Positions 10,010 to 21,562 of a stretch of 27,439 nucleotides of DNA are shown piece after piece. Origin of the DNA: a virus; the IMG/VR virus record IMGVR_UViG_3300033148_003861, positions 1 to 27,439 of that record; one strand, written 5' to 3'. The notes below the pieces were generated by a model. The model searched no databases. It was given only the letters and a program-made list of their open reading frames with translations, and was not told the origin of the DNA. The position numbers were made by a program, and so were the translations under genes. The first letter of the stretch is position 1; each line of letters starts with the position of its first letter.

Positions 10010-10774
10010 ATGAAAGTACTTCTTGCAATTAATACTTTAACTTTGATAGACAATTTTGTCTATAGTAACCATGCCCAACTATATTATAGACTAGGAAAGG
10101 GACTGAAACAGGAAGATGACGTAATACTGTTTCACCCTTTCCGGATGTCTATTGATCGCATGAGAAATATGGCGGTCAAGACTGCGCTAGATAATGAATG
10201 TGATTGGCTTTTCTTTGTGGACGATGATGTACAAGTTCCCCGTGATGCGTTTTTCCGACTTGCATCACATGACAAAGATATCGTAGCGGGTGTTACCTAT
10301 ATTCGTGGTTATCCATTTCATCCTATGATCTTTCGTAATAAACCGGAAAGCGAAGGCATGGATTACTTGGATGATTACACTAGCCATGTGCAAGACGATG
10401 GTCTTATAGAATGTGATGCAGTCGGATTTTCCTGTGTACTTATTAAAATAGATTTAATTCGCAAGATGTCTTCACCATACTGTATAACAGGTGCGAATCA
10501 CACTGAGGATATTTACTTTTGTCAGAAAGCTATTGCAGAAGTGCCTGGAACAAAGATTTATGTAGATCCAGCAGTACAAACTGCGCATAAGTTAGGTGTT
10601 GAGTTTATAGAAAAATCTAATATTGAACCTATGAAAACTTACATGGAAGCATTGGATACTAAACCTGAAGAATCTGAAGAAGGCAACCGCAAAGATCGTT
10701 CGGAGAAGTATTTAGATGAAAATAAAATCAACCTTGAAAGCCTTGAATCTCGGCTGCGGATTGACAAAATTTGA
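10010..10774 (+). CDS. GT-A-type glycosyltransferase
   Basis: The protein has 254 residues. The pattern RMSIDRMRNMAVKTAL (45-60) followed by DWLFFVDDDVQVP, with DDD at 71-73, is the nucleotide-sugar and metal-binding DxD region of GT-A enzymes. TEDIYF (165-170) supplies the probable catalytic acidic residues and AHKLG (192-196) a likely C-terminal metal-binding His. It should transfer a sugar from a nucleotide sugar to an unknown acceptor. The last 45 residues are charged and probably flexible. Its 3' end overlaps the methyltransferase gene by 59 bases in another frame. The same two activities are fused in the protein at 12114. Confidence 0.8.
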   Translation: MKVLLAINTLTLIDNFVYSNHAQLYYRLGKGLKQEDDVILFHPFRMSIDRMRNMAVKTALDNECDWLFFVDDDVQVPRDAFFRLASHDKDIVAGVTYIRGYPFHPMIFRNKPESEGMDYLDDYTSHVQDDGLIECDAVGFSCVLIKIDLIRKMSSPYCITGANHTEDIYFCQKAIAEVPGTKIYVDPAVQTAHKLGVEFIEKSNIEPMKTYMEALDTKPEESEEGNRKDRSEKYLDENKINLESLESRLRIDKI

Positions 10775-11303
10775 AAGCAGCGAAGATACAGAATTTATTA
10801 ATGTAGACATCGATCCAAAGATGAATCCTGATGTTCTTCATGATATAACTAAAATTCCATTTCCTTTTGATAAAAATAGTATAGATGTTGTATATCTATT
10901 ACATACTATTGAGCATCTTAACAATGAAATTCAGATCAAAGTGCTTAATGAAATTAGGAGAGTTCTAAAGGATAATGGAATTTTAGTAGTTTCTTATCCC
11001 GAATTTATTAAGGTAGCCCAAAACTATATTGATAATAAAAATGGGAATAGATATTTCTGGAAAGCAACAATTTATGGAAGGCAATTGAGTCCTTTTGATT
11101 ATCATGTATCGCTGATGGATACTAGGTATTTTGTACAATTACTGAATGCCCTAAAATTTGATGTTGTTACAACTAGACCGGAACACAAACAAGTGTTCAA
11201 TACTCTGGTAATTGCGCGGAAAAGTAATGCGCTGTTAACTAGAGAGCAAGTGATTAACGACGAAATTTTTGGAGGCAATGATGGAAGTGCAAGAGCAGAT
11301 TAA
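10716..11303 (+). CDS. SAM-dependent methyltransferase (class I)
   Basis: The protein has 195 residues. Motif I is ALNLGCG (9-15), the acidic residue after strand 2 is in NVDID (29-33), and the methyltransferase signature LLHTIEHL lies at 61-68. RRVLKDNGILVVSYPEF is the usual strand 5 region. This is the Methyltransf_11-like small-molecule/sugar type, not a DNA methylase: no DPPY or NPPY is present. ATG 10716 has GGAGAAG seven bases upstream, inside the glycosyltransferase gene. The pair probably acts on the same product. Confidence 0.82.
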   Translation: MKIKSTLKALNLGCGLTKFESSEDTEFINVDIDPKMNPDVLHDITKIPFPFDKNSIDVVYLLHTIEHLNNEIQIKVLNEIRRVLKDNGILVVSYPEFIKVAQNYIDNKNGNRYFWKATIYGRQLSPFDYHVSLMDTRYFVQLLNALKFDVVTTRPEHKQVFNTLVIARKSNALLTREQVINDEIFGGNDGSARAD

Positions 11304-11745
11304 ACTTCGAGGGCATTTAGAATTGTTCTTGAGGGATCTCAAAGGTAATCTTGTAGATAAGCGCTCTATCCATAATGTAGTTGTTACTAATGGCCGTGTG
11401 TTTGTACTAGAGCAAATCGCTTCTAGTGAAATAGACACTGACCGCGCAATCTCGCATCTTGCTGTGGGGACTGATACTACAGCTGCGGCGACTAGTGACA
11501 CTGCACTGGGGAGTGAAACAACGCGTAAAGCAATAGGAACTTTTACTACATCAAATTTAACTTCTAATCCTCCGAGTTGGAGAGCAGAGGTTAATTTTGC
11601 AACTAATGAAGGTAACACAACTCTTGGAGAAGCTGGTCTGTTTAATAGTAGTGCTGCAGGGACACTTTTTAATCATGCGATCTTTACTACTCTTGACAAG
11701 ACTACTAGCAATACTTTGACTGTTAGGTTTACTGTTTCAAATTAG
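11281..11745 (+). CDS. Virion appendage/tail-fibre-like structural protein
   Basis: The protein has 154 residues. Of several in-frame starts, ATG 11281 lies five bases after a GGAGG (11271-11275), so it is preferred. Beta-rich pattern with HLAVGTDTTAAATSDTALG near the middle and WRAEVNFATNEGNTTLGEAG then SNTLTVRFTVS at the end. This layout is common in small phage virion proteins and tail-fibre domains: a first strand set, a Thr/Ala-rich hairpin, then 'GEAGLFN' and a last LTVRF strand. It sits between two sugar-modification modules, which makes it a candidate substrate; that is inference. Confidence 0.6.
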   Translation: MEVQEQIKLRGHLELFLRDLKGNLVDKRSIHNVVVTNGRVFVLEQIASSEIDTDRAISHLAVGTDTTAAATSDTALGSETTRKAIGTFTTSNLTSNPPSWRAEVNFATNEGNTTLGEAGLFNSSAAGTLFNHAIFTTLDKTTSNTLTVRFTVSN

Positions 11746-11756
11746 AAAGGACTTCG

Positions 11757-11921
11757 ATGGATTTAAAAGCATACACTTTAGCCTATGTTGCATATGGTGT
11801 ATATCGAGCGTACACTGTAGAGAAATTACCAGCTTTCGAGGATTTAACTGAAGAAGATCAAGAATTCTGGAAACAAGCTGTAATGGCTACGGAAAAGTAT
11901 ATAGAGAAAGGTAAAAAATAA
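11757..11921 (+). CDS. Small RyR-like phage protein
   Basis: ATG 11757 follows AAAGGA by five or so bases. The 54-residue product contains AYVAYGVYRAY, then LPAFEDLTEEDQEFWKQAV. The pattern of aromatic helix, 'LPxFEDL' and 'EFWKxAV' is common in small phage proteins related to the RyR domain, a small helical fold of uncertain role in phages. Family placement is from pattern memory. Confidence 0.6.
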   Translation: MDLKAYTLAYVAYGVYRAYTVEKLPAFEDLTEEDQEFWKQAVMATEKYIEKGKK

Positions 11922-11949
11922 ATTACTTGAAGACTGGAGAATATAACTT

Positions 11950-12111
11950 ATGCAAGAACAGAACTATGAAGAAATGGATGATGACTTAAAAAAGCTTTTG
12001 AAGAAAGATTATGACCAGGTGAAGAAACAAGTTAAGGAACTTCCTTCAGAAGATTATATAAGATTGTTTACACCTAAAAAAAGAGATAAATTTAAGGAGA
12101 TTAAAAAATAA
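11950..12111 (+). CDS. Tiny highly charged protein
   Basis: ATG 11950, with TGGAG ten bases upstream, opens a 53-residue frame ending at TAA 12109-12111. The product is Lys/Asp/Glu-rich (DDDLKKLLKKDYDQVKKQ) and predicted helical. No known motif. Its stop is two bases before the next gene's ATG, and its last codons carry an AAGGAG that may serve that gene. I have no function for it. Confidence 0.5.
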   Translation: MQEQNYEEMDDDLKKLLKKDYDQVKKQVKELPSEDYIRLFTPKKRDKFKEIKK

Positions 12112-12113
12112 AA

Positions 12114-13304
12114 ATGAAGCGCAAAGTTACAACTGGACCTGGAATTATGATTGTAATTCCGACATTAGGTCGGCCTGTCCCACTAAAATGGGCTGTACAC
12201 TTTAAATCTATAAATCCTCCAATCAACTTTAACACTGAACATTTTATTATTGAGAATAAGCCAATAGCTGAAGCTCGAAATGCTGCGTGCAAAGCTGCAC
12301 TAGAAAAAGGCTGCAAATACCTTTTCTTTTGGGGAGACGATGTAGTTCCTCATTCGCTCAATACTTTGAAGCAATTAATTTTTCGCATGGAAACTGTGAA
12401 AGACTGTGGGGTAGTAGGAGGGATTTATTGTAGTAAAACTGATCCTGCAGCCCCGTTGATATTCAAGGGAAATGGGCGTGGAAGCTACTGGAATTGGAAG
12501 ATTGGGGAGTTTCTTGATGTAACTGGTATTGGGATGGACTGTACTTTAATTCGTCTTGATATTCTAAAAGACATCAAAGAACCCTGGTTTAAAACTGTTG
12601 AGGAAGATACATTCGATGAGGGCATTAACAAAGCTGATCAATGGACTGAAGATCTATATTTCTGTAAGAAAGTTGTTGAAGAAACTGATTGGAAAGTTTA
12701 TGCAGATTGTTCATTGCTTTGTGGGCACTTGGATGTATATGAAGGACGCGAGTATAACTTGCCCACAGATTGCCCTCCAGTAACAGGACAGCCTATTGAT
12801 GGAACTAAAACTAAGAAAATTGTAGATCTTGGTTGTGGAGAGATTGATAGGTCTACAGATTTTAAAGATTATAACTTGGTGCGAGTAGATATTAGAGAAG
12901 AGTGTAATCCAGATTATAGATGTGACTTGCATTCATTACCGTTTGCCAATGAAGAGTTCGATATAGTATTTTCCAGTCACGTGCTTGAACATTTCTCGCG
13001 GGGGGAATGGGAAACTGTATTGCGAGAATGGATTAGAGTTCTTAAAATAGATGGACGCTTGCACTTGATTCTCCCAAATCTGGAATGGGCATTGGATAAT
13101 TTTGATACAAATAAGATTATTCTCACGCAACCAGATGCATATAATGTGATCTATGGAGGTCAAACTAATGATTTTGACTATCATAAAGTTGGTTTTACTC
13201 CTTCAATCATTAATGCACATTTGAAAGCGCTGGGATTTAAAGAAATTACAATTGAAAAGGAAGGTTATAATATGCTAATTAATGCTACAAAAACAGGGAG
13301 TTAA
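12114..13304 (+). CDS. Fused glycosyltransferase-methyltransferase
   Basis: The protein has 396 residues. The N-terminal half is a GT-A-type glycosyltransferase: IVIPTLGRP (13-21), IAEARNAACKAALEKG, then FFWGDDVVP with GDD at 74-76, TEDLYF (178-183) and a GH pair at 204-205. After a short linker near 220-234 comes a class I methyltransferase: IVDLGCG (236-242), RVDI (257-260), SSHVLEHF (287-294) and WIRVLKIDGRLHLILPN. The domain order is the same as the two separate genes at 10010 and 10716. It probably adds and methylates a sugar. ATG 12147 is an alternative start; ATG 12114 has AAGGAG about 14 bases upstream. Confidence 0.8.
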   Translation: MKRKVTTGPGIMIVIPTLGRPVPLKWAVHFKSINPPINFNTEHFIIENKPIAEARNAACKAALEKGCKYLFFWGDDVVPHSLNTLKQLIFRMETVKDCGVVGGIYCSKTDPAAPLIFKGNGRGSYWNWKIGEFLDVTGIGMDCTLIRLDILKDIKEPWFKTVEEDTFDEGINKADQWTEDLYFCKKVVEETDWKVYADCSLLCGHLDVYEGREYNLPTDCPPVTGQPIDGTKTKKIVDLGCGEIDRSTDFKDYNLVRVDIREECNPDYRCDLHSLPFANEEFDIVFSSHVLEHFSRGEWETVLREWIRVLKIDGRLHLILPNLEWALDNFDTNKIILTQPDAYNVIYGGQTNDFDYHKVGFTPSIINAHLKALGFKEITIEKEGYNMLINATKTGS

Positions 13305-15026: not shown

Positions 15027-15664
15027 CTAAAATCGAAATACTAGATAAGGTGCGAGGAAATCTCTATGACACAGGCATGGTGCATTGGGAGAAATCGGAT
15101 TTAGATGATGCTATTCAAGATGGCTACAACGAAATTGCGCTTTTTACACAATGTATTGAGACTGTTGATACCCTTTCACTGGTAGGAAACCTCACTTACT
15201 ATAAGATGCAGGACTATTTCAGTGACTATTATCGTCCTATTGCAATGTGGAACAACCAAACTAATAAATGGTTGGAGCCTATTTCGATTATGGAATTAAA
15301 TGAATGGCATCCTCGTTGGGAAACACTAATTGGTGAGCCAATGTTTTTCAGTCCAATAGGGTTAGAATATGTTTCGATAGTTAAGAAACCTGCTACAACT
15401 GCGGGAAGCTTACTAGTATTTTATGCGTCAACTGCAAACACCCTAGCTGATGGAACTACCCCAACTATTCCTGAGGGTTCTCATAATGTTCTGGAAGATT
15501 ATGCAACTGCGATTTTGTTAGATCAAAACTTGGAGTATACCAAGGCCAAGAACTATTATGATGATTATGAGCAAAAGATCGGCGATATCGTGCGAAACTT
15601 AAATAAGCGCAGTATGCCTGACCGATTGATGACTTTGGCAAATGTTGTAGGAGTGGTGTCTTAA
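15023..15664 (+). CDS. Head-tail adaptor protein (SU10-type)
   Basis: The protein has 213 residues. It opens with a helix pair (KIEILDKVRGNLYDTGM, then SDLDDAIQDGYNEIALFTQ) followed by beta strands (TVDTLSLVGNLTYYKM) and 'EPISIMELNEWHPRW', and ends in a helical region (AKNYYDDYEQKIGDIVRNL). This is the pattern of adaptor proteins that bind below the portal in SU10-like podoviruses. Position between head genes and the nozzle-like protein agrees. Confidence 0.68.
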   Translation: MTKIEILDKVRGNLYDTGMVHWEKSDLDDAIQDGYNEIALFTQCIETVDTLSLVGNLTYYKMQDYFSDYYRPIAMWNNQTNKWLEPISIMELNEWHPRWETLIGEPMFFSPIGLEYVSIVKKPATTAGSLLVFYASTANTLADGTTPTIPEGSHNVLEDYATAILLDQNLEYTKAKNYYDDYEQKIGDIVRNLNKRSMPDRLMTLANVVGVVS

Positions 15665-16341
15665 TGTCGATTTTTTCAGATGAATATTTACAGTATTTGC
15701 TAGATCGCTCAGAGGTAGATTTCTCGCAGGCGATTCCTTGCATTTTCTATAGATTTTCACTATCGATAACACAAGGAACTTCGCAGTATACACTTCCTAC
15801 AGGAGTAATCAATATACTACGTGTGACCTGGAAAGGTGAGCGAGTATTTCCTTGGGAACACTCTGATACTAGACAGAGTAATTGGATGAAACCTCAGAAT
15901 CTATCATCCCAAGGCAAGCCAAAATTTTATCTTTCTAGGGAATATGGGTATGGACAAATAAAATTCCATCCAATTCCTAATGAGACAGTAGCTGCTGATG
16001 ACACTAATATATACGGTTCTGATATCGCTAATCGTGTTATTATTTCCGCATACCGGCTTGCTGATCCTACTGGGACTACTTATCGGCTACCGGAAGCTAT
16101 TAGAGAACGGATGGGCAAATACTATGCGATGTATAAGGCTTATCAGCGGGAAGGTAAGGGACAGGATTTAATAGCCGCGGCATATTTTGAACGAAAGCAT
16201 AAGTTGGCACTAAGTCAATTTAGAAAAATTATTATGAAGATTCCAGCAGCCATTCAATTACAGTTTGGGCCTACTGGAATGCATCGTGATAATAAACCTG
16301 CAAAACCATTAATGCCTTCGGATGGCGCATGGGGTTGGTAG
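15664..16341 (+). CDS. Second adaptor/tail-connector-like protein
   Basis: The protein has 225 residues. It shares the general pattern of the preceding adaptor: an N-terminal helix with beta strands (FSLSITQGTSQYTLP, VINILRVTWKGERVFPW), a 'YGQIKFHPIP' strand and a helical end (MGKYYAMYKAYQREGKGQ, AAAYFERKHKLALSQF). It is probably a second ring or completion protein of the head-tail connector. The TAATG overlap with the gene upstream supports joint translation. It could instead be a long tail-fibre adaptor. Confidence 0.6.
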   Translation: MSIFSDEYLQYLLDRSEVDFSQAIPCIFYRFSLSITQGTSQYTLPTGVINILRVTWKGERVFPWEHSDTRQSNWMKPQNLSSQGKPKFYLSREYGYGQIKFHPIPNETVAADDTNIYGSDIANRVIISAYRLADPTGTTYRLPEAIRERMGKYYAMYKAYQREGKGQDLIAAAYFERKHKLALSQFRKIIMKIPAAIQLQFGPTGMHRDNKPAKPLMPSDGAWGW

Positions 16342-17691
16342 ATGCCGATTATAGATGTAGTAAGATTGCAACGGAAGTTAAAAAATTTCCTAGTTGATAA
16401 GGGAATAGTATCTCCTCGTAGCTATCTAACTCTCGATAACTTGGATGCATTGGGGGAAGGAATTGAAGGGGCTACTAGAAGCATGCCTCCACAAGTAGGT
16501 ATCCCTGGTTTTTTGGCAAGTAAGGGAATGGGGGCAGCTGTAGACGTTGCCAAGAATGTTGACATTGATGCCTTGATGCGTGGGATAAAAGAGTATCAGG
16601 ATGTTTTTAATCTTTCAGTACTGCCTTTAGCTAAGCGTTCCGCAGTATCTTTGAAAAAACTTTCACATCAGTTAGAGATTCCAGATATTATGGAGTTTTT
16701 GGCAAAAAGATACCAACGCGAAGATGTAAATTTTCCTTTTAGTAGAGGAGGGCGGGAAGCTACTTATTTTAAAGCTGGACCTGCAAAATCTGGAGAAATA
16801 TATAGTCAATTTTCTGATAACTTAGTAGAAGGAGGCCCTGTAGCAGTTATCGTGAAGGCAAGGCCAAAAAATCCTCTAGTTCTTCATAAAAGAAGGATTT
16901 TTGATGATTCAGGACATACTCTAGAGAGACTCTTAGGAGAACGAGGGTTTAGAGAATTAAGTTCTTTTTTGAGTGGTGGACAAAAAGGCGTTTACAAAGG
17001 ACAATCCTCTCTGAATAAGTGGAAATCTATTACTACTTCTAAAGATGTAGATATTTTAATAGAAAGGCTCTCGAAGTTAACTGGAGAATCTAAGAATAAA
17101 TTGAAAGATCTAAAGGATGCACTTAACTTTCAGAGAACTCAAGCTACGTATCAGGGTGATCCTTATTTTCTTGTAAAAGACTTCCTGATGCACAACATTG
17201 CCAAGAAAAAAGGCTATGATTCTATTATTCGTAATACTTTTGGATCTGGAGAATTAGATTTTGAAACAATTGGCAAAGGCAATGCTTCTACTATCACTGA
17301 TGAAGCTCTAGCAATGTTTAAGGCTAAGAGGAAGGGAATTAAGAAATCAGTGGATAAGTTATTTAGTCAGGAGAGTATAGTAGAAGCATTGCCCCCAAAG
17401 AAAGCATCTTCTACTAGGGCAACAGAAAGTTCTCATACAAATTTACAAGCTTTGGATAAACCTAGAGTATCAATAACTCCTAAATGGAATATACCTCCTC
17501 CAAAAACAACGATACTTAACAATCTCCTAAGCATGAAAAAACCTAATAATCTTGGTTTTGTTGCAGCACAAAATCACCAATTAGGAAATAAACGTTATGA
17601 CTTTGATAATTCTATCTGGGCTAAGAAAGCTCTCTGGTTGTTAAATCAGGATTTGGATAATTTTGGGCTAAGAAAGCTCTCTGGTTGTTAA
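16342..17691 (+). CDS. Accessory virion-block protein, possible ADP-ribosyltransferase-like domain, C-terminus broken
   Basis: The annotated frame has 449 residues, but its last residues (after WLLNQDLDN, ending FGLRKLSGC) are the product of a 47-bp tandem duplication. With one copy removed the frame continues into the next ORF, giving 513 residues ending ELYKKVF at 17930. The centre contains FSRGGREATYFKAGPAKSGE, then VAVIVKARPKNPLVLHK (168-183) and KGYDSIIRNTFGSGELDF (290-307). The 'NPL' strand, later 'GYDSII' and acidic end resemble ART-PolyVal-type ADP-ribosyltransferases; this is a pattern match only and the canonical triad is not clear. The remainder is helical and basic. It starts directly after the adaptor stop. 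Confidence 0.5.
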   Translation: MPIIDVVRLQRKLKNFLVDKGIVSPRSYLTLDNLDALGEGIEGATRSMPPQVGIPGFLASKGMGAAVDVAKNVDIDALMRGIKEYQDVFNLSVLPLAKRSAVSLKKLSHQLEIPDIMEFLAKRYQREDVNFPFSRGGREATYFKAGPAKSGEIYSQFSDNLVEGGPVAVIVKARPKNPLVLHKRRIFDDSGHTLERLLGERGFRELSSFLSGGQKGVYKGQSSLNKWKSITTSKDVDILIERLSKLTGESKNKLKDLKDALNFQRTQATYQGDPYFLVKDFLMHNIAKKKGYDSIIRNTFGSGELDFETIGKGNASTITDEALAMFKAKRKGIKKSVDKLFSQESIVEALPPKKASSTRATESSHTNLQALDKPRVSITPKWNIPPPKTTILNNLLSMKKPNNLGFVAAQNHQLGNKRYDFDNSIWAKKALWLLNQDLDNFGLRKLSGC

Positions 17692-17710
17692 ATCAGGATT
17701 TGGATAATTT
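17617..17710 (+). repeat. Perfect 47-bp tandem duplication
   Basis: Bases 17617-17663 and 17664-17710 are identical over 47 bases, beginning TGGGCTAAGAAAGC and ending GGATAATTT. Forty-seven is not a multiple of three, so the duplication shifts the frame and creates a stop at 17689-17691. It may be a real mutation or an assembly artefact. Confidence 0.95.
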
Positions 17711-17930
17711 GGCAGATAAAATTAAAGATGTTCTCTATCCGTTTGTAAACAATAAAAGTATTACTAAAAAACAATATTCTGATACTGTAGCTACTGTAAA
17801 GAGTGTTACCAATCGCATGAAGGCACTAGAGTACGGTCCTTCAAAAGTGTTAGACAACCTTTCTCTCACTCTTGCAGACAAAGGTGTCCCTCCTATTATC
17901 ATTCAAGAACTTTACAAGAAGGTTTTTTAA
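17685..17930 (+). pseudogene. Displaced C-terminal part of the 16342 gene
   Basis: The frame opens inside the second copy of the duplicated sequence; TTG 17685 is the formal start and there is no ribosome site. It encodes about 81 residues, helical and basic (ADKIKDVLYPFVNNKSITKK) ending ELYKKVF. It is in frame with the 16342 gene once one 47-bp copy is removed. Its stop overlaps the nozzle gene start as TAATG, the usual junction here, so it is the natural end of the upstream gene. Confidence 0.7.
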
Positions 17931-20659
17931 TGGCAGATATCACAAGAAAAGATTGGGCGCGTGGTTATATTCCTTCACAGGATCGGACTAACGGTGATCC
18001 ACGTGGTTTACTGCGAATGGATAATCTGCATTTAGATGAGGATAATGTACTATCACTGACGCGAGGATCGGAAAGAATCAATACTACAGCTTTTGGTGGA
18101 ACAGTCCACACTTGTTATTCTAAGTATGTCCTTACTACAAAATGGTATTATGCAGCTCTTTCTGATGGTTCCGTTCGCCGTTCTTCTGATAATTTCACTT
18201 CTGAAACTATGGTAGTTAACCCTGGAGAAGGGAATTTAGGAAGAGCATCTTTTGGTTCTTCTCTTGGATGCATATTCACTTTCTCAGGGGGACAAAAAGG
18301 ACGAAAGCGCGAATATTTGAAGGATGGCACTTTACAGACCTTCAATTGTACTCCTGAAACTCCTACAGAAGCTCCTGTTATTAATGCGATTAATCAACCA
18401 GTCCAATGGGTATTTGAAGATCCTTGGATTGGAGGAGATTGGTCTATAGTAGAAAATGAAGGCTTAAATTTAACTGTAGGTACTACCTACGCACAATTTG
18501 ATACCGCAGATTCAGGATCAGGCACCCCGTCAGTGTATAAAGCTGTAATACTAAATACAAGTGAAATAGATACTCGGGTGGAAGGTAACTCCGAGTATTT
18601 ACAAGATGATGGGTTTAGTATTGCAGTTCGTATTCAAGATTCAGCACTGTTAAATAGAGTACGGATAGAATTTATTGCCGATGATATAGATGAAACGAAA
18701 AACTATTACTGGAAAGAGTGGGATAATCGAAGTAATTCTCCTTTCTTGATGGGTAAATCTGCGTGGACTACCCTTAAATGTAATCGTTGGGAGTTTATTC
18801 GTGAAGGTGTTGATAACGATTTTAATTGGAGCACAATTGTAGGAATGAAAGTTATAGTAGAGTCTACCTCTGCTATGCAAGGCAATGCTATTGCAGATGT
18901 TCGTTTTACAGGGGGTGAAGAAGGAAAGTTACATGGACTCTATGACTATATTCAAGTAAATGTCTCCAACAATGGTGTATATGTTGCCAAATCGGGAATG
19001 TCTCCTGCAAAAGAATCAGTATTTGTTTCAAAAGGTTATGTAACCCTAGATATTCAAGTTCCCACTGATGATGAATCTATCAATGAGATTTGGATCTTTA
19101 GACGGAGTTCGGATTATACTAAAGCAGAGATTATTCCAGAAGGATCTCGTCCTGAACTTGATGCCTACTATTTTGTTGCTAAATTAGAACAGGTTGGGGG
19201 AGTTTTTCCTCCTTCAGTGGAAGATAAGACATCTGATCTTGAAGCCCTTGGGGATAATCTAATCTATCGCACCAACTTTATTTCATTACTTGAATATCCC
19301 GATGATATCCTAGGTTTTATTCCTGAATATAACGGGCGTGCGATTTATTTGACTTTTAAGGAAGTCTTGTTTTCTGATTTGCGAGATCCTGGTCTTATTG
19401 ACAATTCTGCTACAATTAAACTTAGTGGTGATCCAACACAAAAGAATTTATGGATAGCTAAGACTCACCCTAGCCAATTCTATATAGGGGCTACGAATGA
19501 AATATATATCTTGAGAGGAAAGTTACAATACTTGCCCGATGGTTCTATGAATGTTCATGTGGATAGTCTGGGGATTGATACTTTACCTCTTGCAGCACAG
19601 GTAGATGAGAGCAAGGGTATCCTATATTTTATTGCCGCAGATGGAGTAAAGTATATTAATGGCTCAGAAATTGGGGATATTTCTGGTAATCTTAAGCTGT
19701 TATTTGAAGGTCATACACGCTATGAGATGCCTGGAATTAAAATCTATACTTATGACACTGCTGTATATCCAATTGCAATTGCTAAAGGAAAGCTCTGGAT
19801 TTCAGTTCCTCTAGTTGCAGGGGTCGAAGGAGGTGATGCACGTATCTTGTTTGTCTATGACATTGCTAAGCAATACTGGACAACAGTTTTTAACAATCCC
19901 GCATATTTGTTTACTGAAGAGGATGGTGGATTACTCTCTGGTTTTGGTGGCTACATGCGAGAATTGGATACCGGAACGCTATTGGATGGAGCTGTCGGAC
20001 AGCGAATCTTTTTTGAAACTATTGCTGATGATAATAATCAACCTCGCAATCGTAAGGATGTTTTTACCTTTAAGATTACCGCAGATAGTGGTAATGAACC
20101 CGTGCGGATTCTAATTGCAAAGGATGGCTCGGATTTATTCTATGAAATAGGAGAACAACGCTTTGATGGAAAGTCAGAAAAACTTGTTTCAATTGCAGAA
20201 ACAATTGGTCTTGGAAAGTCTTTTGCGGTTCGTTTAAGAGCTGATTCTCTTTCCGTCTTTAAACTATATCACTTCTCAATTGAATATGATGCCAGACCAG
20301 AACAACTTACTTATATCCGAATACCCAATACAAATTTGGGAACGCCTTCTCGAAAAAGATTTGTTAACTTTCCCTTTGTTATTGATACCCTTGACCATGA
20401 ATGTGAATTCTTTCCATTGATAGACAATGTAGTTGCGGGAAGTTCGTCATTAGTACAAACAGCTTCAAAACTAACACATATCCACTATTTTTATCCTACA
20501 ACTTTGACTGATCCTATGCAAGATGAGTTTGTTGGGACAGATATTGGGGGTATAATTTGTGGTTTTTTTGAATTTTATGGAGTAGATTTTGAGGAAATTG
20601 TAAGTGAAAAATTGCCAATTCCTGTCAAGAGTATGCTCATTCCTGGAAGTGATTATTGA
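17930..20659 (+). CDS. Tail nozzle-like protein, ends at an in-frame TGA
   Basis: The 909-residue product is a large beta-rich protein with short strands throughout (YYAALSDGSVRRSS, TFSGGQKGRKREYL, LYFIAADGVKYINGSEI), suggesting a propeller like the tail-nozzle proteins of podoviruses (T7 gp12 type). It probably forms the tube below the adaptor ring. The last 112 residues are the first of three related modules. TGA 20657-20659 ends this frame, but the same frame remains open to 21562, so the full protein may have 1210 codons before the stop. The TGA lies where the neighbouring modules have Gly (GGA). TAATG links it to the gene upstream. Confidence 0.72.
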   Translation: MADITRKDWARGYIPSQDRTNGDPRGLLRMDNLHLDEDNVLSLTRGSERINTTAFGGTVHTCYSKYVLTTKWYYAALSDGSVRRSSDNFTSETMVVNPGEGNLGRASFGSSLGCIFTFSGGQKGRKREYLKDGTLQTFNCTPETPTEAPVINAINQPVQWVFEDPWIGGDWSIVENEGLNLTVGTTYAQFDTADSGSGTPSVYKAVILNTSEIDTRVEGNSEYLQDDGFSIAVRIQDSALLNRVRIEFIADDIDETKNYYWKEWDNRSNSPFLMGKSAWTTLKCNRWEFIREGVDNDFNWSTIVGMKVIVESTSAMQGNAIADVRFTGGEEGKLHGLYDYIQVNVSNNGVYVAKSGMSPAKESVFVSKGYVTLDIQVPTDDESINEIWIFRRSSDYTKAEIIPEGSRPELDAYYFVAKLEQVGGVFPPSVEDKTSDLEALGDNLIYRTNFISLLEYPDDILGFIPEYNGRAIYLTFKEVLFSDLRDPGLIDNSATIKLSGDPTQKNLWIAKTHPSQFYIGATNEIYILRGKLQYLPDGSMNVHVDSLGIDTLPLAAQVDESKGILYFIAADGVKYINGSEIGDISGNLKLLFEGHTRYEMPGIKIYTYDTAVYPIAIAKGKLWISVPLVAGVEGGDARILFVYDIAKQYWTTVFNNPAYLFTEEDGGLLSGFGGYMRELDTGTLLDGAVGQRIFFETIADDNNQPRNRKDVFTFKITADSGNEPVRILIAKDGSDLFYEIGEQRFDGKSEKLVSIAETIGLGKSFAVRLRADSLSVFKLYHFSIEYDARPEQLTYIRIPNTNLGTPSRKRFVNFPFVIDTLDHECEFFPLIDNVVAGSSSLVQTASKLTHIHYFYPTTLTDPMQDEFVGTDIGGIICGFFEFYGVDFEEIVSEKLPIPVKSMLIPGSDY

Positions 20660-21232
20660 AATCCTAATAGAAAGCGGCACTCAAGTTATAAGTTTGTTAT
20701 TAACACGCGCGGGCAGCCAGTCCAATTTACTCCGCGCATTGACCAAACCTGGTATCCTACAGCTACATACACTACTAGTGAAAAGCAGACAGTAGAGTAT
20801 TTCTTTACTACTGATACAATTGGGATTGACATTGGTGGGCGTCTTGATTCGCTCGCTAGTACACCTTTTGAGTTTTATGGTAATATTGTTCCACAAACGA
20901 TAGAGATACTTCCCGATAGACTACGCGAGTTTAGAATTCCTGAAAATAACTACGGACATGCAGCTAAAAAACGTCTCCGCACGATGCCAATGACGATTAA
21001 CACCAATGGAGAGGATGTAACCTTTACACCTTATATAGACAATGTTGCGCAAACTCCGACAACTTTAAATACTCCAGTAAAGCAAACAACTTTTCATTAC
21101 TTTAGTACAGATGTGTTTGGCATTGATTACAGTGGAGAGCTAGTAGCTACTACGAATACACCCTTTGAATTTTATGGATTAGAGAAACCTGAAGGAGTAG
21201 AGGTACTTCCTGTAGCAAAGAAATTTGACCAA
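20321..21232 (+). repeat. Three tandem beta modules of about 100 residues
   Basis: The modules begin at linkers IPNTNLGTPSRKR, IPGSDY-TGA-NPNRKR and IPENNYGHAAKKR, with the Gly/TGA position at codons 804, 910 and 1009 of the gene. Each module contains 'FTPxID' or 'FFPLID', a 'THIHYF/VEYFF/TFHYF' strand, 'GTDIGG/GIDIGG/GIDYSG' and '(F)FEFYG'. The nucleotide sequences have diverged, so the duplication is old. Confidence 0.8.
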
Positions 21233-21562
21233 GTAAATCTTAAAGTAGATAGACTCGCAAAACTTCAGCGTTTGCGTCTTCGGGCAATAACGGAAGAAAA
21301 CGCAATTCAGTTAGTTATTAAAACTGAGGCTGAGGTTACTTTACCTAACATGACTGGTACTTCAGGTATCCATACTATAGACATTCCAACTACTCCAAAT
21401 ACCGACGATGTTTGGGAAATCATGTTACCAAAAGGTGTCTATGGAACCAGTTTTAGGTTTGAACTTGGGCCTACTAGTACTCCTTTCCATAGGTATGAAT
21501 TACAAGTACTAATGGTACAGAGTGGAGTACATGCAGATCCTAAATGGGTTAAATTAAAGTAA
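20660..21562 (+). CDS. In-frame C-terminal extension of the nozzle-like protein
   Basis: This 300-codon stretch is in the same frame as the nozzle gene and follows its TGA directly with no other stop. It holds modules two and three (FTPRIDQTW..., TPFEFYG at both module ends) and a C-terminal beta domain ending VHADPKWVKLK. ATG 20984 would give a 192-residue protein, but it starts inside module three and has no ribosome site, so an independent gene is unlikely. It could be made by readthrough of the UGA, or be untranslated if the TGA is a real nonsense mutation. TAATG joins it to the next gene. Confidence 0.6.
   Translation, partial: NPNRKRHSSYKFVINTRGQPVQFTPRIDQTWYPTATYTTSEKQTVEYFFTTDTIGIDIGGRLDSLASTPFEFYGNIVPQTIEILPDRLREFRIPENNYGHAAKKRLRTMPMTINTNGEDVTFTPYIDNVAQTPTTLNTPVKQTTFHYFSTDVFGIDYSGELVATTNTPFEFYGLEKPEGVEVLPVAKKFDQVNLKVDRLAKLQRLRLRAITEENAIQLVIKTEAEVTLPNMTGTSGIHTIDIPTTPNTDDVWEIMLPKGVYGTSFRFELGPTSTPFHRYELQVLMVQSGVHADPKWVKLK

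Follow-up and report, generated by a model that had tools for sequence, protein, structure and literature searches.

Gene-inactivating tandem duplications are already known. In B. pertussis, a 30-bp tandem duplication inactivates BP3410, the gene for a Mn exporter, and is lost under selection (PMC8546581). In pneumococcal capsule genes, phase variation occurs by spontaneous sequence duplication (Waite et al. 2001, 2003, as described where they are cited in PMC4022640 and PMC4243769). In S. agalactiae, around 70% of the natural indels longer than 4 nt lie at repeats, with a median of 8 nt (PMC3637634).

The phage locus analyzed here shares with BP3410 a short perfect tandem duplication that inactivates a gene, and the B. 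pertussis gene is restored by the loss of one copy. In contrast, the B. pertussis duplication is 30 bp long, stays in frame, is present in ~98% of strains and has been seen to be lost experimentally (PMC8546581), whereas the phage duplication is 47 bp long, shifts the frame and is known from a single contig. As far as the citing papers describe the pneumococcal capsule genes, the likeness lies in a spontaneous tandem duplication within a coding region that turns the gene off and is reversible in principle; phase variation was reported there, whereas the phage is known from one allele. The RecA-independent indels of host-adapted S. agalactiae are likewise small, easily reversible and gene-breaking, but most of those longer than 4 nt occur at flanking repeats (median 8 nt), of which the phage junction has none (PMC3637634). 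In its anatomy, the phage case appears to resemble the known revertible gene-inactivating duplications, and we do not file it as phase variation. The duplication alone demonstrates no new mechanism; if real, it would be a snapshot of a type of frame-breaking duplication that is normally removed from phage genomes.

A frame-breaking 47-bp tandem duplication

The window, that is, the whole stretch of DNA analyzed, is an entire virus record from IMG/VR; it is 27,439 bp long, is listed as linear and has 38% GC. Using Tandem Repeats Finder and a repeat finder, we recovered the two adjoining exact 47-base copies that the first-pass annotation had reported (Table 1). They are arranged head-to-tail inside a coding region, are identical at 47/47 positions and form the sole exact tandem duplication with a unit of at least 12 in the window; the chance expectation for an exact 47-nt pair is ~2e-23. 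The C before copy 1 and the G after copy 2 mismatch their counterpart bases, and 0 bp are shared past the unit. Since the flanking bases mismatch on both sides, the unit is exactly 47 nt and its borders are unambiguous.

As a baseline, ~0.96 Mb of IMG/VR loci and 0.17 Mb of GenBank phage loci were scanned for units of at least 12, and a further 0.19 Mb of IMG/VR loci for units of at least 20. This gave 27 exact tandem arrays with a unit of 12-24, and every one of these units (27/27) was a multiple of three. Exact tandem duplications with a unit of at least 25 nt were absent from the total of ~1.32 Mb of other phage DNA, whose loci are partly redundant. A frame-breaking exact 47-bp duplication is rare, as expected if selection purges such events.

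The ORF that starts at 16342, where a TAG/ATG junction joins it to the adaptor gene, encodes 449 aa, runs through copy 1 and terminates within copy 2. Beyond the copies, the coding remainder extends for 73 codons to a TAA at 17928-17930, which overlaps the ATG of the next gene. With codon usage trained on 15 other genes of the window, the part upstream of the copies scored +77 in the upstream frame, copy 1 scored +3.6 in the upstream register, copy 2 scored +3.6 in the downstream register and the remainder (17712-17927) scored +15; all other frames, on both strands, had negative scores and contained stops. Removal of one copy had been proposed to restore a single frame from 16342 to 17930, and it does: 1589 nt less 47 leaves 514 codons including the stop (513 aa). 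The locus is one 513-residue gene with a frame break, and the duplication alone breaks it. This second claim of the first-pass annotation is likewise upheld by the codon scores, by the stop-free frames on both sides and by a remainder without its own RBS: none of the candidate starts of the remainder (TTG 17685, 17700 and 17709) has a convincing Shine-Dalgarno, and the earliest ATG lies at 17817. The downstream gene at 17930 is preceded by its own AAGAAGG, so it would not need to rely on translation of the broken gene.

A programmed -1 frameshift rejoining both parts was also considered, and was rejected because the stretch 17617-17691 contains no canonical slippery heptamer X_XXY_YYZ in the ORF frame.

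Table 1 Features of the broken gene and its neighbors in the window.
Feature	Position	Strand	Remarks
SU10-type adaptor protein, upstream neighbor	15664..16341	+	Pfam PF24175, E 2e-8; homologues in relatives
Truncated accessory gene	16342..17691	+	440 native residues and 9 out-of-frame residues (FGLRKLSGC), then TAA
Copy 1 of the 47-bp unit	17617..17663	+	Upstream gene's frame; its sole open frame and sole positive codon score are in the upstream register
Novel junction AATTT/TGGGC	17663..17664	.	Microhomology absent
Copy 2 of the 47-bp unit	17664..17710	+	Register is that of the downstream coding remainder
Coding remainder of the same gene, shifted register	17712..17930	+	Ends in TAATG; only stop-free, positively scoring frame
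Nozzle-like virion gene, downstream neighbor	17930..21562	+	TGA 20657-20659 in frame; the single 1152-aa ORF of L123 aligns across 17930-21553

The broken gene and its neighborhood

Genes recognized in the window include those for a terminase (PHROG 2), an Mx8-like capsid protein (phrog_9953) and phrog_399. Relatives in IMG/VR are mostly 43-52% identical in the terminase and ~37-48% in the capsid protein, and a terminase profile search of genome_contigs for a host gave no match. Compared with relatives, the terminase, portal, scaffold-like, capsid, glycosyltransferase, methyltransferase, phrog_399 and adaptor genes are all intact. The downstream neighbor is labeled 'nozzle-like' because of its place in the gene order and because, in annotated relatives, stabilization/head-closure genes come after the adaptor gene. 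Related contigs differ in what separates these two genes: the interval extends from none at all (L127 and L128) up to ~6 kb (L123), its contents vary, and the broken gene is absent from every contig examined.

We searched for homologues of the broken gene with the whole protein, its middle part and its C-terminal remainder, and found no credible match in viral_contigs or GenBank phages; neither did the middle part find one in genome_contigs, nor tblastn and phmmer in ~130 loci. The gene matched no family in Pfam, PHROGs or NCBIfam. Across viral_contigs, phages, genome_contigs and related contigs, neither a one-copy allele nor a homologue was found, and the exact 47-nt unit, searched as a pattern in viral_contigs with the window's own record excluded, had 0 matches. 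Since its product matches no family and none of the relatives examined carries it, the broken gene is an accessory ORFan and not a core virion gene. Its earlier description as a virion-block gene is correct as regards its position. The 449-aa ORF gave an unusable single-sequence AlphaFold2 model (mean pLDDT 37). By eye, the string '...NPLVL...KKGYDSIIRN' had suggested an ADP-ribosyltransferase-like domain, which was dropped: the window has no match to Pfam ART-PolyVal (PF18760), and Pfam, PHROGs and NCBIfam gave no matches that would support it.

Elsewhere in the window (10010-13304) and in most relatives, the capsid gene and phrog_399 are separated by glycosyltransferase and methyltransferase genes. 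In L123, a 54% homologue of the fused glycosyltransferase-methyltransferase gene (12114-13304) sits on the far side of the adaptor gene, a cassette move. At the contig's left end, ~0.9 kb without an ORF of at least 60 aa holds an imperfect AT-rich tandem repeat (813-890; 31-nt period, 2.3 copies). In a related 46.5-kb contig, IMGVR_UViG_3300014839_000012, loci at the right end (L038) and left end (L039) encode a near-identical protein stretch with few differences, which suggests that this may be a circularly permuted genome, drawn from two strains, whose ends overlap.

Origin of the duplication and competing explanations

We consider it probable that the tandem duplication arose recently and without homology, that it cuts short a dispensable gene, of which 440/513 native residues are kept, and that it could be lost by recA-independent slippage; the allele's reality in the population, the gene's dispensability and this route of repeat loss are what we infer. 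The duplication would have arisen spontaneously, by illegitimate, essentially homology-free joining or by a replication template jump, and would have struck a lineage-specific accessory gene in the variable adaptor-to-nozzle-like interval of an uncultured podovirus-like phage. Because 47 is not divisible by three, ribosomes would lose the frame after residue 440, append nine wrong residues and terminate at 17691, leaving the final 73 codons untranslated or poorly translated via restart. The perfect repeat could then revert by recA-independent slippage. This explanation is supported by the clean borders of the exact repeat, by the codon scores, in which copy 1 is positive only in the upstream and copy 2 only in the downstream register, by the fact that a de Bruijn assembler needs reads spanning the junction to produce it, by the documented bacterial duplications of comparable effect, and by the gene being an ORFan in an interval of ~0-6 kb whose contents differ in relatives. 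The 'very recent' origin suggested by the first-pass annotation gains no more than moderate support, in that 0/47 differences bound the divergence between the copies below ~6%.

At the 17663/17664 junction, microhomology is 0 bp, as it is for 55% of random 47-bp units in the window. The short direct repeat at the junction that characterizes slippage-type events is lacking, and a duplication between the nearby 7-bp GATAATT pair (17605 and 17703) would have had a unit of 51 bp instead of 47. Thus, homology-free joining would explain the junction better than classic slippage. Two observations count against the duplication as a natural event of the kind we favor: its 0-bp junction, set against the ~70% of indels longer than 4 nt that are found at repeats in S. 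agalactiae (PMC3637634), and TGA 20657, which is a second lesion in the gene that follows. The 0-bp junction modestly shifts the odds toward an artefact.

Such an artefact of assembly, scaffolding or library preparation, in which contig ends overlapping by 47 bp were concatenated unmerged or a chimeric read was used, is the chief alternative, and we regard it as unlikely while taking it seriously. Blunt, homology-free borders of exact copies are what an unmerged overlap would leave, nothing similar was seen in ~1.32 Mb of other phage DNA, and the adjacent gene carries the second lesion; on the other side, the window contains no N bases, every homologous core gene from terminase to adaptor is intact, and a de Bruijn graph of one-copy reads cannot yield the junction k-mers at any k tested. 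For every k tested between 21 and 141, k-1 junction k-mers are missing from the one-copy allele, so a de Bruijn assembler needed junction-crossing reads; at k of at least 48, the two-copy allele is an unbranched path. To create the junction falsely would take a join made after assembly, a chimeric read or an unusual pipeline. To our knowledge, 47 is neither k nor k-1 of the common assembler defaults, and we know of no common default k of 46-48. The artefact option raised in the first-pass annotation keeps some probability, although de Bruijn assembly alone cannot create the junction. A decaying provirus, in which the duplication would be one of several inactivating mutations, could also account for the TGA that interrupts the nozzle-like frame 3 kb downstream; the same set of intact genes, from terminase and portal through scaffold-like, capsid, glycosyltransferase, methyltransferase and phrog_399 to adaptor, makes a degenerate or defective element very improbable.

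The first-pass annotation had also offered a reversible on/off switch, for which we found no positive evidence. High-frequency gain and loss of the duplication would toggle the accessory gene under selection, as reported for the pneumococcal capsule genes, and perfect adjoining repeats are indeed good substrates for recA-independent loss, with bacterial precedents (PMC8546581; and, as far as their citations of the capsule work go, PMC4022640 and PMC4243769). However, the 47-nt pattern search of viral_contigs revealed no second allele, there is no recurrent hotspot, the junction has 0 bp of microhomology, no homologous gene shows the same event, and selection cannot be shown from a single instance. 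As to recurrence, no relative examined carries the gene, and ~1.3 Mb of other phage DNA holds no comparable duplication. We consider such a contingency switch very improbable, and scarcely credible its extension in which a duplication-based switch on an accessory virion-block gene is perhaps combined with a leaky TGA 20657 that varies the number of nozzle-like C-terminal domains. The least probable reading is that the locus holds two real genes, one for a 449-aa protein and one for an 81-aa protein that starts from TTG 17685 and overlaps the stop. The TTG does adjoin the TAA (TTGTTAA), and the relative L126 has a natural split with a stop/start overlap, but in another gene; TTG 17685 itself lies inside copy 2 without a Shine-Dalgarno, and the nine residues that close the first ORF come from reading copy 2 in the wrong frame.

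An in-frame TGA in the nozzle-like gene

The nozzle-like ORF (909 codons) ends at the TGA at 20657-20659, and its frame stays open for 300 codons more, to 21562. In L123, the closest relative, the 1152-aa ORF is 46-49% identical and has GGA at the position of the TGA. The stretch past TGA 20657 is highly conserved, with no start codon before 20984, and the TGA falls where the first of three repeated C-terminal domains gives way to the second. Elsewhere in this phage TGA is a real stop, as the TGA of the portal gene matches the ends of its homologues. A nonsense mutation, an error in the sequence and a UGA readthrough signal are all possible explanations of TGA 20657.

Two lesions in adjacent genes raise doubt about the contig. 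Given these, together with the intact core genes from terminase to adaptor, read-level verification is needed before building on either lesion, and the same caution extends to 'broken genes' on single viral-metagenome contigs in general, which call for read-level checks.

The ~110-aa C-terminal domain of the nozzle-like protein varies in copy number among relatives (window 20300-21280; L123 12269-13105; L126 10087-11879). There are three copies in the window frame and in L123, around six in L126 and fewer in others, and in L126 the array is divided over two genes with a stop/GTG overlap.
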